NCBI GenBank assembly: GCA_021323775.1
Contig: JAJPKK010000051.1
Span: forward strand, 1 to 43,227
DNA: 43,227 nucleotides
Reading direction: 5' to 3'
Source: Hyphomicrobiales bacterium
Lineage (GTDB): Bacteria > Pseudomonadota > Alphaproteobacteria > Rhizobiales > Xanthobacteraceae
The stretch's first letter is position 1; the number at the start of each line of letters is the position of its first letter. Under the pieces are notes generated by a model. The model saw nothing but the letters and a program-made list of their open reading frames with translations. It did no database searches and had not been told where the DNA came from. This document shows positions 3,453 to 42,002 of this stretch, in pieces. The translations under genes and the position numbers were made by a program.

Positions 3453-4343
3453 ATGACCAGCCAAGATACGCCGATGCACCCTCGCCAGCGCACCGAGTAT
3501 TCCGCCATCGTCGATCGGCCGCCACTCCGTTTGCCCAAGGGTGCGCGCCTCGTGCTGTGGCCGATCGTCAATCTGGAGGTCTGGGACATCAGCCGGCCGA
3601 TGCCGCGCCAAGTCCTGCCGGCCCCGACCGGCGCGTCGCTCCTTCCCGATGTGCCGCACTGGAGCTGGCACGAATACGGCATGCGGGTCGGTGTGTGGCG
3701 ATTCTTTGACCTGTTCCATAGCCGCGGCATCAAGCCGACGCTCGCCATCAACGCGCGGGTCTGCGAGGACTATGCGCGGGTCGCCGAAGAGGCGCGGCGG
3801 GAGGACTGGGAGTTCATGGGCCATGCCTACGACCAGATGCCGATCCACAAGCACGAGAACCAGCGCGATATGATCAACCGCTCGATGGATATTCTCGAGC
3901 GCTTCACCGGCAAGCGCCCGCTCGGCTGGCTCGGCCCCGGCCTGACGCAGACCTATGAGACGCCGGACCTGCTCGCCGCGGCCGGCGTCAAATATATCGG
4001 AGACTGGGTGTATGACGACGAACCGGACATCATCCGCACCGCCAACGGGCGGCTCGTGACGCTGCCCTACACGGTCGAACTCAATGATATCGCGATGATG
4101 ATCGTGCAGCACCACGAAAGCGACTATCTGTTAAGGCGCGCCATCGACGCATTCGACCGGCTCTATGCGGAGGGCGAGCGCCGCGCCAAGATCATGGCGG
4201 TGGCGATCCATCCCTATATCAGCGGCCAGCCGCATCGGATCAAATACCTCGAAGCGATCTACGACTATGCCGCAAAATTCGCTGGCGTGCTGCACTGGAA
4301 CGGCGAGCAGATTCTGGAGTGGTACCTAAGGGCAAAGGAGTAG
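3453..4343 (+). CDS. Polysaccharide deacetylase (NodB-like) family protein
   Basis: A 296-residue protein of the carbohydrate esterase 4/NodB fold, which removes acyl groups from N-acetylated sugars or acts on related amides; the PuuE-like allantoinase branch is a real alternative. Family features seen are the TLAINARVCEDYARVAEEAR strand-helix segment, a HAYDQMPIHKH metal-site region in the middle and a C-terminal AVAIHPYISGQPHR block. There is no signal peptide, which argues for a cytoplasmic small-molecule hydrolase rather than a cell-wall enzyme. I chose the ATG at 3453; 3474 is also possible. The stop codon TAG (4341-4343) is the first part of a palindromic repeat. Confidence 0.8.
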   Translation: MTSQDTPMHPRQRTEYSAIVDRPPLRLPKGARLVLWPIVNLEVWDISRPMPRQVLPAPTGASLLPDVPHWSWHEYGMRVGVWRFFDLFHSRGIKPTLAINARVCEDYARVAEEARREDWEFMGHAYDQMPIHKHENQRDMINRSMDILERFTGKRPLGWLGPGLTQTYETPDLLAAAGVKYIGDWVYDDEPDIIRTANGRLVTLPYTVELNDIAMMIVQHHESDYLLRRAIDAFDRLYAEGERRAKIMAVAIHPYISGQPHRIKYLEAIYDYAAKFAGVLHWNGEQILEWYLRAKE

Positions 4344-4368
4344 GGTGGGCGAAGCGCAGCGCGCCCAC
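4340..4368. repeat. Palindromic repeat, GTAGGGTGGGC...GCGCCCAC type
   Basis: GTGGGC at 4345-4350 pairs with GCCCAC at 4363-4368 around a gaagcgcagc-type loop. The unit resembles the gTAGGGTGGGCgaagcg repeat seen in many bacterial genomes. Its TAG is the stop codon of the deacetylase gene. A second, larger repeat follows at 4379. Confidence 0.7.
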
Positions 4369-4378
4369 GTCAGGCCCC

Positions 4379-4508: not shown

Positions 4509-6791
4509 TCAAATCAGCCGCCCGGTCCACTCGCGCAGACCGGGAAACGCGTCGCCGAGAAGCGACGGCGGCCACGGCACGTGCAGCAGCTTCACGAACA
4601 GGATGTAAAATCCGATCCAGAACGTGATGGTGATGATGAGCGCCAGCGGCCACCGCGTCCTGCCGGCGGTCGACATGTAAGAGAACATATAAAGGCCCAA
4701 AGCGGGCATCAGCCCGATCAGCATCACGCCGGCCAGGAGCCCCATGAGCCAGAGCGCTTCAACGAGAAGGCGCGCATAGACGGTCGTCTCGGCCAGTTCT
4801 CCCAATGCGCCGGCGACCTCGTGCCCAGTCTTCTTCGCAAGAGCAGGCTTGCCTTGCAGCTTCCCCAAAGCAGCGGCGAGACCCGCACAGGCGATGACGA
4901 TGAGGCCCGCAGCGGCCGCGGTCTGCGGCATCAGCCGCGCCGAGAAGCGCCAGCCCGCGGCGCTCCAGAACGCCGCCGCAAGGGCGAGAAAAGCGAGCAC
5001 CCACAGGCCCGAGCCGACGACGCGGTCGATGGAGAAGGTGTTTGACCGAAAAGCAGCGGCCGCGACTCCCTCCCCCCTGTCGAAATCGGCTGTTGCCGAT
5101 TTCGATCCCTCGATCAATTGGCCGAAACCCGCGTATACGCGGTTTCGGCTGGGGGAGGGATGGGGTGGAGGGTCGGGCAGTTGTGGCGGCGTTGCGCCCC
5201 ATCGCCCGCCCCCCGCCCCTGGCCCCTCCCCGCAAGGGGGCGGGGCTGAGCCTGCGGCACGACCACGGCCCAAGCTCGCGCCAGTGAGAACGGGAGCCGG
5301 CCTCCACATCCGGTAAAATGCCCTGAACAGCGGACTTGCAAGCACCAGCACGGTGATGGCGAAGATCGCGATGACCCCCGGTCGCTGGAGCCATTCGAAC
5401 TGATAGCGGCCGACCGAGATGAAGAGATATTTCTCGATCAGCTTGCCGAGCACGAAGCCGAGGATCAGCGGCGCGCGCGCCCAGCCATGCCGCTTCATCG
5501 TCCAGCCGATGAGGCCGAACGAAACCAGCACTACAAGATCGCCGAAGCTGAGCGAGCCCTGATAGGCGCCCACAAAGCACACCGCGAATACGGTCGGAAT
5601 GAGGATGCCGGCCCGCAAGGTCGCGATCCGGGCGAGCGGATTGGCGGAGAGGAAGCAGACCCCGGCGCCCACCACATTGGCGAGCGCGAGGCTCCAAACC
5701 AGCGTGTAAGTGACGTCGAGCTGCGTATCGAGCAGTTTCGGACCCGGCGCAATGCCGTGGGCGAGAAAGGCGCCGAGCAGCAGCGCCATCGATGGCGAAC
5801 CCGGCACCCCGAACGCAAGCGTCGGGATGAGGGCGCCGCCCTCGCGGGAGCAGTTCGCGGATTCCGCCGCGATCAGGCCGCGCACGTCGCCCTTGCCGAA
5901 GGTCTCCGAGGCGCCTTTGACCATGCGCGCGGCCGATCCGTAAGCGATCCAGTCGATCACGGCGGCGCCCATGCCGGGCACCGACCCAAGCACAACCCCC
6001 AGAAACGAGGAATTGAGGATCAGCTTCCAGTTCTGGATGACGTCGCGCACGCCGCGCATCTGTTCGCGGAACAGGCCGTCTAATCGCTGCGTCGAGCCCA
6101 TATTGGTGCGCGCGATCGCCATGTCGATGAGTTCCGGCACCGCGAACAGGCCGAGCGCAATGCATTCGATCGGCACGCCGTCGTCAAGGTAAGTGCCGGC
6201 GATGTCATCGAAGGTCCAGCGCAACTGTCCTGACTGCGCTTCATCCCCGACCGCGGCAACCAATACGCCGAACAGCGCAACGATCAGCCCCTTGAGGATG
6301 TTGCCCTGGCTCACCGATGCGACGAGCGTAAGGCCGAGCACGCACACGGCGAGCAGCTCCGGCGTGCCGATCGCCAGCATGAATGGCCGCAGGATCGGGA
6401 TCGAGACCGCCAGCAGAACGGCGCCGAACACGCCGCCGACGATCGACGAGCTGAACGAGGCGCCAAAAGCGCGTCCGGCTTCGCCGCGCTTCGCCATCGG
6501 GTGGCCGTCGAGCACTGTTGCGGCCGACCCGACCGCACCCGGCACGCCGAACAGGATTGCTGGAATCGTATCGGAGGTCGCCGTGACCGCCCACATGCCG
6601 ATCAGGAAGGCGAGGGCCGTATGGGCGTCCATGGCATGGGTGAACGGGATCAGCAGAGCGAGGCCACCGAGGCCGCCGATGCCCGGCAGCATGCCGATGA
6701 CGAGCCCGAGCCCGATGCCGGAGCAGATGATGGCGAAGCGCGCCGGGTCGAGCACGACCGCGAGCGCGCTGAGCGCATTGTCAATCAGCAA
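4509..6791 (-). CDS. Fused TctA-TctB tripartite tricarboxylate transporter membrane protein
   Basis: This 760-residue inner-membrane protein joins the two membrane parts of a TTT carrier, which takes up carboxylates using an ion gradient and a periplasmic binding protein. Residues 1 to about 500 are TctA (GLVIGMLPGIGGLGGLALL and the repeated GSVPGMGAAVIDWIAYGSA signature, many membrane helices). Residues about 584-760 are TctB-like with four to five hydrophobic segments. These are usually separate genes. The linker of about 80 residues (505-583) is Pro/Gly-rich and encoded by palindromic repeat DNA (5043-5277). No tctC is adjacent; the nearest binding protein (7974-8987) is of TRAP type. A frame with no linker role, producing two proteins, cannot be excluded. 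Confidence 0.85.
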   Translation of the reverse strand: MLIDNALSALAVVLDPARFAIICSGIGLGLVIGMLPGIGGLGGLALLIPFTHAMDAHTALAFLIGMWAVTATSDTIPAILFGVPGAVGSAATVLDGHPMAKRGEAGRAFGASFSSSIVGGVFGAVLLAVSIPILRPFMLAIGTPELLAVCVLGLTLVASVSQGNILKGLIVALFGVLVAAVGDEAQSGQLRWTFDDIAGTYLDDGVPIECIALGLFAVPELIDMAIARTNMGSTQRLDGLFREQMRGVRDVIQNWKLILNSSFLGVVLGSVPGMGAAVIDWIAYGSAARMVKGASETFGKGDVRGLIAAESANCSREGGALIPTLAFGVPGSPSMALLLGAFLAHGIAPGPKLLDTQLDVTYTLVWSLALANVVGAGVCFLSANPLARIATLRAGILIPTVFAVCFVGAYQGSLSFGDLVVLVSFGLIGWTMKRHGWARAPLILGFVLGKLIEKYLFISVGRYQFEWLQRPGVIAIFAITVLVLASPLFRAFYRMWRPAPVLTGASLGRGRAAGSAPPPCGEGPGAGGGRWGATPPQLPDPPPHPSPSRNRVYAGFGQLIEGSKSATADFDRGEGVAAAAFRSNTFSIDRVVGSGLWVLAFLALAAAFWSAAGWRFSARLMPQTAAAAGLIVIACAGLAAALGKLQGKPALAKKTGHEVAGALGELAETTVYARLLVEALWLMGLLAGVMLIGLMPALGLYMFSYMSTAGRTRWPLALIITITFWIGFYILFVKLLHVPWPPSLLGDAFPGLREWTGRLI
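5043..5277. repeat. Composite palindromic element inside the tctAB reading frame
   Basis: Several palindromes are nested here. A hairpin TCGAAATCGGC/GCCGATTTCGA lies at 5080-5105 with a TGTT loop. A near-palindrome GCCGAAACCC...GGTTTCGGC lies at 5121-5149. Outer arms TCCCTCCCCC (5067-5076) and GGGGGAGGGA (5151-5160) pair across both. CCCCTCCCCGC-aa-GGGGGCGGGG lies at 5223-5245. On the coding strand it is read as Pro/Gly/Ser-rich linker with no stop. The same type of unit is in the EamA gene near 41 kb and between genes at 9.8 and 25.5 kb. Confidence 0.8.
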
Positions 6792-7973: not shown

Positions 7974-8987
7974 TTACCCCAATTTCCCGACCTCCGCCTC
8001 AAGCAGCGTCCAGCACTTCGTCCCCAGCTTCTCCTTCCAGGTTGCGTAGACCTGCGTGAGCCGGGCGCGGAACGGCGCCTGGTCAACCTCATTAAAGATA
8101 AGGCCGGCGGCGGCGAGCCTGTCGCGGAGGCTTGCGTTGACATTACCCTGGTCGATGCGCTGCTGACGCACATATTTTGTTACGTTGCTCGTGATCACGT
8201 CCTTGATGTCGTCTCCCAGGCTGCGCCAAGTGGCAAGATGCGCCATCTGGTTGAAGCCGGACCACATGTGGTTCGTCATGCTGACGTATTTCACCACTTC
8301 GTAGATGCGGAAGTTCTCCAGGACGGCGAGCGGATTTTCCTGCGCCCCGACTTTGCCGTTTTTGAGCGAGTCGTAGATGAGATTGGCTGACGTGGTCACC
8401 GGCTCGGCGCCGAAAGCCTGGAAGGTGTCGAATATCATCTGTCCAGGCGGGACGCGGATTTTCACACCGGCAAGGTCGTCCGGCGTGTTGACCGGGCGCG
8501 CCACCGTGGTGACCTGGCGCATGCCGTTGTCGAAGCCCGCGACCGGGAAAAGATACATGCCCTTCGCGGCCATTTCCTCGCCCATATAGGCGCCGAGCGG
8601 GCCGTCGATCGCCTTGTGGGCCTCGGCCGCCGATCGGAACGCGAACGGCGCCTGCTGCACTTCCGCCATCGGCACCACCGTGCCGATAATGCCGCCCATC
8701 AAGGTGAAAAACTGGATCTCGCCGGCGATCAGCATTTTCAGCGCCGCCGGATCGCCGGCTGCGAGCTTGTTGTTTTCCGCGTAGACGGTGGTCTCCACGC
8801 GGCCGTTGGTCTCCTTACCGATCGCCTCCCACATGGCGACGAGATTCTTATGGAGCGTGCTCCTCTCCGACTGATTATGGTACTGCGTGAACTTGTAGTC
8901 GGCGGCCCGAACCGGCTTTACGATGATGGTTGTTCCGGCTGCCGCCGCTCCGGCGAGCAGCGCACGTCGCGTCCAGGGCGTCTTCAT
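7974..8987 (-). CDS. TRAP transporter solute-binding protein, DctP family
   Basis: The 337-residue periplasmic binding protein captures an organic acid for a TRAP carrier. It begins with a twin-arginine-like leader (TRRALLAGAAAAG), suggesting export in folded form. DctP features include LAGVKIRVPPGQMIFDTFQA with the conserved carboxylate-binding Arg, followed by FGAEPVTTS and the later NPLAVLENFRIYEVVKY block. The ATG at 8987 has an AGGAGG site seven bases upstream. No dctQ or dctM lies in the window; the adjacent carrier is a TTT-type TctA-TctB fusion that normally uses a TctC protein. Either it serves a TRAP carrier elsewhere or the pairing is unusual. Confidence 0.88.
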   Translation of the reverse strand: MKTPWTRRALLAGAAAAGTTIIVKPVRAADYKFTQYHNQSERSTLHKNLVAMWEAIGKETNGRVETTVYAENNKLAAGDPAALKMLIAGEIQFFTLMGGIIGTVVPMAEVQQAPFAFRSAAEAHKAIDGPLGAYMGEEMAAKGMYLFPVAGFDNGMRQVTTVARPVNTPDDLAGVKIRVPPGQMIFDTFQAFGAEPVTTSANLIYDSLKNGKVGAQENPLAVLENFRIYEVVKYVSMTNHMWSGFNQMAHLATWRSLGDDIKDVITSNVTKYVRQQRIDQGNVNASLRDRLAAAGLIFNEVDQAPFRARLTQVYATWKEKLGTKCWTLLEAEVGKLG

Positions 8988-9804: not shown

Positions 9805-9820
9805 GATGGGGCCGCTTGTC

Positions 9821-9923
9821 CCCTCTCCCGCTCGCGGGGGGAGGGTTTGGGGGAGCGGGCACACAGCATGGCGCCGAACCGCCGCAGTGCCCCTCGCTGC
9901 CCTCCGCCGCGCGCGGGGAAGGG
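9821..9923. repeat. Family A GC-rich palindrome pair
   Basis: Two hairpins are seen: CCCTCTCCCGC/GCGGGGGGAGGG at 9821-9845, and CCCTCCGCC...GGGGAAGGG at 9900-9923. They lie in the gap between the cytochrome and the propeller gene and resemble the units inside tctAB and the EamA gene. The first could attenuate transcription between the two genes. Confidence 0.65.
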
Positions 9924-25275: not shown

Positions 25276-25641
25276 CAGAGACACTTGGGACCGGGAAGGT
25301 TAGGATGAGGAGCTAGTTGAGCGCTTCCGAAATTCGAAGCATATGGAGCCCGCCCGGAAGGCCGCGTTTACTGGCCCAAGTTGAGGTCTCCAATTGATAG
25401 GTTTCATGGAATCGCTGAACTAGGATTCGGTGAATAACAGGGATGGGGTCGTCTCACCGCACGGACTCGCGGCCCCTCGCCGCAAGCGGGGAGGGGAAGT
25501 TGGCTCCGCCTGCGTCCAATAATTGAAGCGATTATTTCGCGGAAGCCGGCGCTATTGAACCTAATCCGCGGCTGAACGACCAACTCGCAAGGCAAGGAGG
25601 GAGGGTTCACGCCGGCCCTTCCTGCCCCCCGGGAGCATTGA
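25276..25641. other. Intergenic region with one family A palindrome
   Basis: The stretch between queF and the peptidoglycan-binding protein holds the palindrome at 25473-25496 and the GGGAG ribosome site at 25631. No gene is seen. Confidence 0.5.
25473..25496. repeat. Family A palindrome, single hairpin
   Basis: CCCCTCGCCGC and GCGGGGAGGGG pair with one mismatch around a short loop. It is the same type as the unit in tctAB (5223-5245). Confidence 0.75.
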
Positions 25642-40871: not shown

Positions 40872-42002
40872 GTGCAACAGCTTAACGGCGCCGCGGAGGC
40901 GGTCACCGCCCGCAAAGCGAGCGACGAGCCGCCCTCCTGCTCTCGCCCGCATGCGGGCAGGGCGGTTGCACGCGGCGCCGCCACGTCTCCGCTTGTGGGG
41001 GAGGGCCGGGGTGGGGGGGCGGGCAAGTTGGCCCGGAAATCGCCCACTGGCGCGACCCCCACCCCCGACCCCTCCGCACAAGGGGGAGGGGAGGAGTCCG
41101 CGGCAGCGTCGAATCTTAACTCAGCGCCTAAAAGCGGCGGGCAGAGGGTCGAACGAATCCCGCTGGGCATCGCCTGCATGCTCGCCGCGACGATTCTGTT
41201 CGCGGGCTCAAGCGCGCTGTCCAAGTGGCTCGTCGCCACCTATCCGATCGGCGAAATGCTGTTCATGCGCGCCGCGACGGCGCTCATCGGCGTGAGCCTC
41301 GTGATTCTGCCCGTTACGGGCTTCAAGGTGTTTCGCACCAAACGGCTGCGCGACCACTTGCTGCGCAGCGTCTCCCAGTCATGCGCGCAGACGTTTCTCG
41401 TCATCGCGTTCAGCCTGATGCCGCTTGCCAGTGCAGTCGCGATTAACTTTTCGGCGCCCCTTTTTGCCACGGTTGCGGCGTTCGTGTTCCTCAAGGAGAC
41501 CGTCGGCCCGGTGCGCTGGGGCGCGCTGATCGTCGGTTTTATGGGCGTGCTGCTGGTTACGTCGCCGGGTGCTGATACACTCCAGGCGGGATCGCTGTTC
41601 GCGCTCGCCAACGCGGTCCTGTTCGGCACCGTTACGGTCGGCGTGCGCCGCATGACGGCGACCGAGTCGGCCGAAACATTGACGATGTATCAGATGGTGT
41701 TCCTGACGGCCTTCTTCGCCGCAGCTTTGCCGTTCGGCTGGGTGACGCCGACCCTCGCGGACTGGGGCGCCCTGGCGGCAAACGGTCTCGCTAACGCGCT
41801 CGGCCAATATCTGTGGACGCGCGCGCTCCATCTCGCCCCCACCTCGGCCGTGGTGCCTTTCAATTACTTCTCACTCGTGTGGGCGATTATATTGGGATTG
41901 CTGGTGTGGGGCGACGTACCATCCGCCACACTGCTTGTAGGTTCGGCGGTCGTCGTGGGATCGGGCATGTTCTTGCTCTGGCACGAGTCGCGCGGGCGGT
42001 AA
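40872..42002 (+). CDS. EamA/DMT-family transporter with repeat-derived N-terminus
   Basis: A 376-residue inner-membrane protein. Residues about 96-372 are a ten-helix drug/metabolite transporter with two EamA halves (IACMLAATILFAGSSALSKW, MPLASAVAINFSAPLFATVA, LHLAPTSAVVPFNYFSLVWA). The first 90 residues are Pro/Gly/Ala-rich (TSPLVGEGRGGGAG, TPTPDPSAQGGGE) and are encoded by a family A palindrome. The start is a GTG at 40872 with AAGGAG seven bases upstream, which supports translation of the extension. An internal start near 41178 would remove it. Substrate unknown. Confidence 0.85.
   Translation: MQQLNGAAEAVTARKASDEPPSCSRPHAGRAVARGAATSPLVGEGRGGGAGKLARKSPTGATPTPDPSAQGGGEESAAASNLNSAPKSGGQRVERIPLGIACMLAATILFAGSSALSKWLVATYPIGEMLFMRAATALIGVSLVILPVTGFKVFRTKRLRDHLLRSVSQSCAQTFLVIAFSLMPLASAVAINFSAPLFATVAAFVFLKETVGPVRWGALIVGFMGVLLVTSPGADTLQAGSLFALANAVLFGTVTVGVRRMTATESAETLTMYQMVFLTAFFAAALPFGWVTPTLADWGALAANGLANALGQYLWTRALHLAPTSAVVPFNYFSLVWAIILGLLVWGDVPSATLLVGSAVVVGSGMFLLWHESRGR
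40945..41082. repeat. Family A palindromes inside the EamA reading frame
   Basis: A perfect palindrome GCCCGCATGCGGGC lies at 40945-40958. Then CTTGTGGGGGAGGGCCGGGG (from 40992) pairs imperfectly with ACCCCCGACCCCTCCGCACA then ag (to 41082). Both are read in frame without a stop. The composition and the encoded peptide (GEGRGGG...PTPDPS) match the element in the tctAB linker. Confidence 0.8.

Follow-up and report, generated by a model that had tools for sequence, protein, structure and literature searches.

A dispersed composite palindromic repeat, probably inserted in frame into the linker of an existing TctA-TctB fusion

In the window (the whole 43,227-nt stretch of DNA that was analysed) the reading frame of a TctA-TctB protein runs through a dispersed composite palindromic repeat that lies between its two domains, and we conclude, with a probability of about 0.8, that the repeat was inserted into the linker of a fusion that already existed and was kept there as a tolerated addition. 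The fusion gene (4512-6791, minus strand) is one open frame of 760 amino acids with Pfam matches to TctA (PF01970, residues 21-444) and TctB (PF07331, residues 597-741); the repeat is placed exactly between these domains, as the sequence-only reading had described. The extra linker stretch (residues ~506-583; 5043-5277, minus strand) was delimited by alignments, in which it is missing from fused relatives. Stops are absent from four of the six possible frames across 5043-5277, so that an open frame alone is unremarkable. The gene is predicted to yield a single full-length protein; AlphaFold2 run on five sequences gave a mean pLDDT of 38.6, too poor to place the insert within TctAB. The phrase 'TctA-TctB fusion' found no match in the literature searched.

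Upstream of the fusion gene and on the same strand, a solute-binding gene (7977-8987) matches DctP (TRAP type, PF03480) and not TctC, the receptor family that is the expected partner beside tctA-tctB. Near the other end of tctAB, a short hairpin (4340-4369, starting with GTAGGGTGGGC and ending with GCGCCCAC) lies directly behind a polysaccharide deacetylase gene and faces the tctAB end; it is followed by a second palindrome-like stretch reaching ~4475.

The conserved core of the repeat (family F1; 5061-5246, ~186 bp) was defined by alignment with four other near-full copies. A left C-rich outer arm (5067-5076) pairs with a right G-rich outer arm (5151-5160) as inverted repeat I5; within these coordinates lie hairpin A (5080-5105, 26 bp, a perfect 11-bp stem with a TGTT loop) and hairpin B (5120-5149). 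The second half (5161-5246) consists of a G/C-rich imperfect hairpin and a terminal C-rich hairpin, and occurs also without the first half. The linker had been called palindromic in its entirety; it is mostly so, the core accounting for ~62 of 78 residues, and the wording was slightly overstated. The coding strand of 5043-5277 has a folding energy of -147.3 kcal/mol, while shuffled versions average -112.9 (z -6.8) and none of 200 of them came as low; its palindromic structure is beyond chance. When 42 distinct hairpin A variants were compared, pairing held in 93.1% of cells and both-side changes were found in 5 of 11 pairs; the covariation score was reached by 0 of 500 shuffles, and kinship among copies can inflate such counts. 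Across intergenic and intragenic copies pooled, the hairpin A core is under pairing constraint. Between 4 and 38% of dinucleotide shuffles, depending on the copy, were equally or more open, so a selected open frame in the repeat is hinted at only weakly.

Near-full-length F1 copies number five in the genome, the window's included, the other four being 75-81% identical, and many partial copies occur elsewhere, which bears out the dispersal that had been proposed for the repeat. One partial copy (second half, 76%) was found by sequence match within the window itself at 40996-41105, close to the beginning of a gene for an EamA-type transporter (40872-41999); it covers residues ~42-78 of that gene product, in which the Pfam EamA match begins at residue 98. 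Two sites near 9.8 and 25.5 kb (9820-9845 and 25474-25495), which had been put forward as intergenic examples of the same type, are indeed C/G-rich hairpins like the element's 3' end, but as composite copies they were rejected, being simple hairpins only; 40996-41105 is the better partial copy. Hairpin B has 8 sites in its own genome (up to 3 mismatches) and none in the other 295 family genomes searched, so that, judged from these matches, the full composite looks confined to its own lineage.

For the age of the fusion, matches to the protein were sought in 61 genomes (own included) and in named genomes, the latter giving four MAG contigs, and a tree of the TctA part was calculated from the window and 36 sequences from relatives (loci L025 and L026 were left out). 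Sequences that continue for 130 residues or more beyond the TctA part were scored as fused regardless of a TctB match; by this length, 19 are fused (window included) and 17 unfused, and one (L103) was kept out of both counts because its contig ends inside the gene. A single branch with 100/99 support sets the 19 fusions apart, with the window nested among them. Profile scans of 11 of the 18 fused relatives (E up to 0.01) found TctA in 11 and TctB in 7; in the remaining 4 the extension after TctA matches no TctB profile. Past the TctA part the window's protein continues for 270 residues, those of 17 fused relatives for 170-207 and that of L045, which runs off its contig, for 140. The extra linker is missing in all 18 fused relatives, in 14 by alignment of the junction and in 4 (L046, L047, L048 and L049) by length alone. 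The window's neighbours in the tree, an uncultured Rhodospirillales MAG (L102) and an Acetobacteraceae MAG (L101), are ~70% identical to it over TctA and have 682-aa ORFs with a linker of ~20 residues. Since fused relatives lack the stretch and the nearest two have only this short linker, the repeat would have entered a fusion that was already present. No empty insertion site was found at the DNA level in close relatives, the nearest TctAB relatives being ~70% identical as proteins.

In-frame reading of the repeat is not confined to tctAB, and the likeness to Rickettsia palindromic elements (RPEs) drawn by the sequence-only reading holds for other conserved genes of this genome as well. Long ORFs traverse several copies in differing frames and in both orientations, the pattern to be expected of DNA that spreads regardless of the peptide it encodes. 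By comparison with solved proteins, residues 464-549 of an HrpB protein correspond to 458-476 of E. coli HrpB, which leaves unmatched inserted residues; residues 399-481 of an acyl-CoA synthetase correspond to 282-286 of its solved relative, again an insert; and a RibD protein with two hairpins has residues 288-396 against 280-286, the second matched piece being weak. Both Pfam and NCBIfam match the two flanks of the RibD insert, and, in a genome with a completeness rating of 100%, this RibD, encoded in contig C50, is the only match to score above the family cut-off; the other RibD matches are weaker and partial, one of them at a contig edge. A second AMP-binding enzyme carries only the second half of the repeat (165-248 against 106-116; the first piece is weak and Pfam spans the site). 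A 3-hydroxyisobutyryl-CoA hydrolase type enzyme has ~14 and CobN ~23 residues extra at the repeat, and in an ApbE protein, where the hairpin sits in arms of a second type (F2, defined below), the solved-protein match falls into two stretches that flank the hairpin. In an AddA-like protein the hairpin lies between the helicase and nuclease domains matched by Pfam; phmmer found no solved relative of it at E up to 1e-10, so the insertion there rests on these flanking domains. A long ORF across a further copy (L008) matches nothing in Pfam and is possibly no real gene, and a copy ahead of mutY (L005) may extend the start of MutY. The 47-kb contig C50 (L007, L055, L060) holds 6 of the 65 hairpin sites in the genome, two in ribD, one in the CoA hydrolase gene, one in apbE and two intergenic.

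Parts of the repeat, in many cases the second half, were matched in 33 of 121 genomes, own included. Among 28 relatives' loci examined (of 29, with L090 left out), six matches lie in predicted genes. In IleS (L077, ~1430-1605) a C/G-rich palindromic stretch makes up ~54 extra residues directly after a conserved WFIAM; in GlyS beta (L083) the repeat lies within an unmatched stretch between two matched parts. It coincides with the point where a helix-hairpin-helix match is interrupted in a DNA polymerase III alpha type protein (L088), and in a DNA ligase (L082) it precedes the domain that is matched. The matches in L093 and L097 are short and may be due to chance.

Hairpin A was used for a census of its 65 sites in the genome (up to 3 mismatches), of which 12 lie in genes, 52 between genes and one overlaps a gene edge. 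Genes were called with a custom codon-usage script; such calls register only in-frame insertions as intragenic and therefore favour in-frame copies. Sites were typed by their flanks as F1 (the window's kind, C/G-rich arms) or F2 (GTAG-type arms and a second hairpin; several F2 copies start with GTAG); five sites could be assigned to neither type, none of these lying in a gene, and were excluded from the test. F1 sites were found in predicted genes in 9 of 15 cases and F2 sites in 3 of 45 (Fisher p 5e-5). Among the genes that host F1 are hrpB, ribD, the acyl-CoA synthetase gene and cobN, and one F1 site (C208) lies at its gene's end; of the F2 sites in genes, one is at the gene start and one behind the matched domain. 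The number of open frames out of six is similar (F1 4.1, F2 3.7; p 0.20), so stop codons alone fail to explain the contrast. Because an out-of-frame insertion is expected to leave two same-strand pieces of one gene, same-strand flanking pairs were compared (16 with a gap below 450 bases; C104, C172, C256, C49:9192 and C89 left out): none of 10 pairs (2 F1, 7 F2, 1 unassigned) shows one family twice, though five of these pairs include a partner that lacks a Pfam match. Of the four remaining F1 sites with an intergenic call, all but L171 are flanked by different genes. There (1-2954), an F1 copy lies between tandem Gcw_chp-type genes, two nearly complete copies of one family. These checks for broken genes lessen the in-frame bias and do not eliminate it.

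The genome has one Y1_Tnp match. At this locus neither an F1 match nor GTAGGGTGGGC was found, and the inverted repeats beside the transposase have other sequences, among them a 28-bp inverted repeat near the match (L011, 1827-1882); mobilisation by this single Y1 transposase through shared repeats is unsupported, as the palindromes there differ. As to MITE features, the outer arms pair, and visual inspection of the sequence beside five copies, with no empty site for comparison, showed no target duplication. The F1 consensus has neither a GTAG nor a CGTC tag; of the five copies, one has CTAC and one has CGTC at the third base, outside the arms. The family was therefore not filed under the GTAG or CGTC REP superfamilies.

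The sequence-only reading had held that the element removed the gene boundary and thereby made the fusion, and it had named as the case against this a fused relative with another linker. The position of the repeat exactly between the two domains speaks for such an origin, but comparison of the tctA/tctB relatives turned up that very case: 18 relatives are fused without the repeat, all 19 fusions share one side of the 100/99 branch and the nearest linkers are ~20 residues long, and we regard a replacement of the gene boundary by the element as highly improbable. A decaying gene, or an assembly error at the junction, is scarcely more credible: the genome is a draft of 353 contigs, but the frame is open, both domains match their profiles, further conserved genes carry inserts of the same type, and none of the flanking pairs that were examined consists of two pieces of one gene. 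A role in expression deserves somewhat more weight, while still being unlikely. The RNA hairpin would slow translation or mark a site of mRNA cleavage between the TctA and TctB parts, which would fit the folding of the coding strand far below its shuffles (z -6.8) and the pairing of hairpin A kept through compensatory changes; copies are, however, present in unrelated genes, and the pairing count pools intergenic with intragenic copies, so that it speaks for the element generally and not for a role in tctAB. A putative effect of the mRNA hairpin on translation may exist.

What is most likely is a tolerated, spreading repeat without function in this protein. A small hairpin repeat would spread as DNA, by whatever way of movement, and land in many places; inside a gene it would last only if its length, its frame and the place in the protein permit, and in TctAB the insertion site would be the variable linker between two domains. 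Two things probably let the repeat stay there: neither its length nor its frame closes the ORF, and the protein tolerates a Pro-, Gly- and Arg-rich stretch between the domains. The excess of F1 over F2 in genes, on the same core, is unexplained by a purely passive repeat alone. It could be that the arms decide the location, GTAG-type arms directing the element between genes and C/G-rich arms directing it, or letting it be better tolerated, in frame in coding sequence. We hold this to be tentative, a possibility with clearly better prospects than the alternatives above and still improbable: the counts (9 of 15 against 3 of 45) and the similar stop content argue for it, but the numbers are small and come from one genome whose genes were called with a custom script, one of the F1 sites falls at the end of its gene, five sites are unassigned, and differences in age or purging could yield the same pattern. 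If it is true, F1 would be a repeat that targets or tolerates coding sequence and that has a built-in control family in the same genome; given the shared core with differing arms and siting, targeting and tolerance can be tested against each other within one genome. Beyond tctAB, the results suggest that in-frame lengthening of conserved proteins by hairpin DNA, of the Rickettsia type, takes place in a large-genome bacterium and touches its only full-length RibD, a helicase, a chelatase and acyl-CoA enzymes. Selfish DNA that lengthens proteins in frame is a seldom noticed route.

The repeat was compared with known systems. Its genome (6.07 Mb, 64% G+C in the stretches read) does not fit Rickettsia, and the F1 core, at 186 bp, is somewhat longer than an RPE; the likeness is one of behaviour and size. 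According to two reviews, RPEs measure 105-146 bp (PMC2229807) or ~150 bp (PMC10969869) and share with F1 the palindromic structure, the similar size and the occurrence both between genes and in frame in unrelated conserved genes (PMC2229807, PMC10969869). The sequence-only reading knew of no equivalent of such insertion outside Rickettsia for this type of repeat, and this did not hold, since intragenic REPs (PMC3733652) and ERIC, Correia and Yersinia elements (PMC2229807) are reported. Intragenic GTAG and CGTC REPs are described from several species, alphaproteobacteria among them, often in DNA-repair genes and also in helicase and tRNA-synthetase genes (Di Nocera et al. 2013, PMC3733652); the hypothesised mobiliser of GTAG REPs is a RAYT gene with copies of these repeats on its flanks, and CGTC REPs are said to be without RAYT. 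F1 resembles these REPs as short hairpins in ORFs of similar gene kinds (PMC3733652), and differs in being longer, nested and composite, with an untagged consensus; its sibling F2 shows GTAG. In-frame and intragenic palindromes are already known; the literature search on coding palindromes found neither the composite family nor a contrast of arm types on one core. ERIC, Correia and Yersinia palindromic MITEs that are read in frame were reviewed by Delihas (PMC2229807), and they are like F1 in being small repeats with open frames that become fused in frame to genes. Correia elements come closest to the contrast described here, in that their two sizes differ in intragenic versus intergenic siting as F1 and F2 do; the review ties that difference to stop codons (PMC2229807), whereas the stop content of F1 and F2 is similar.
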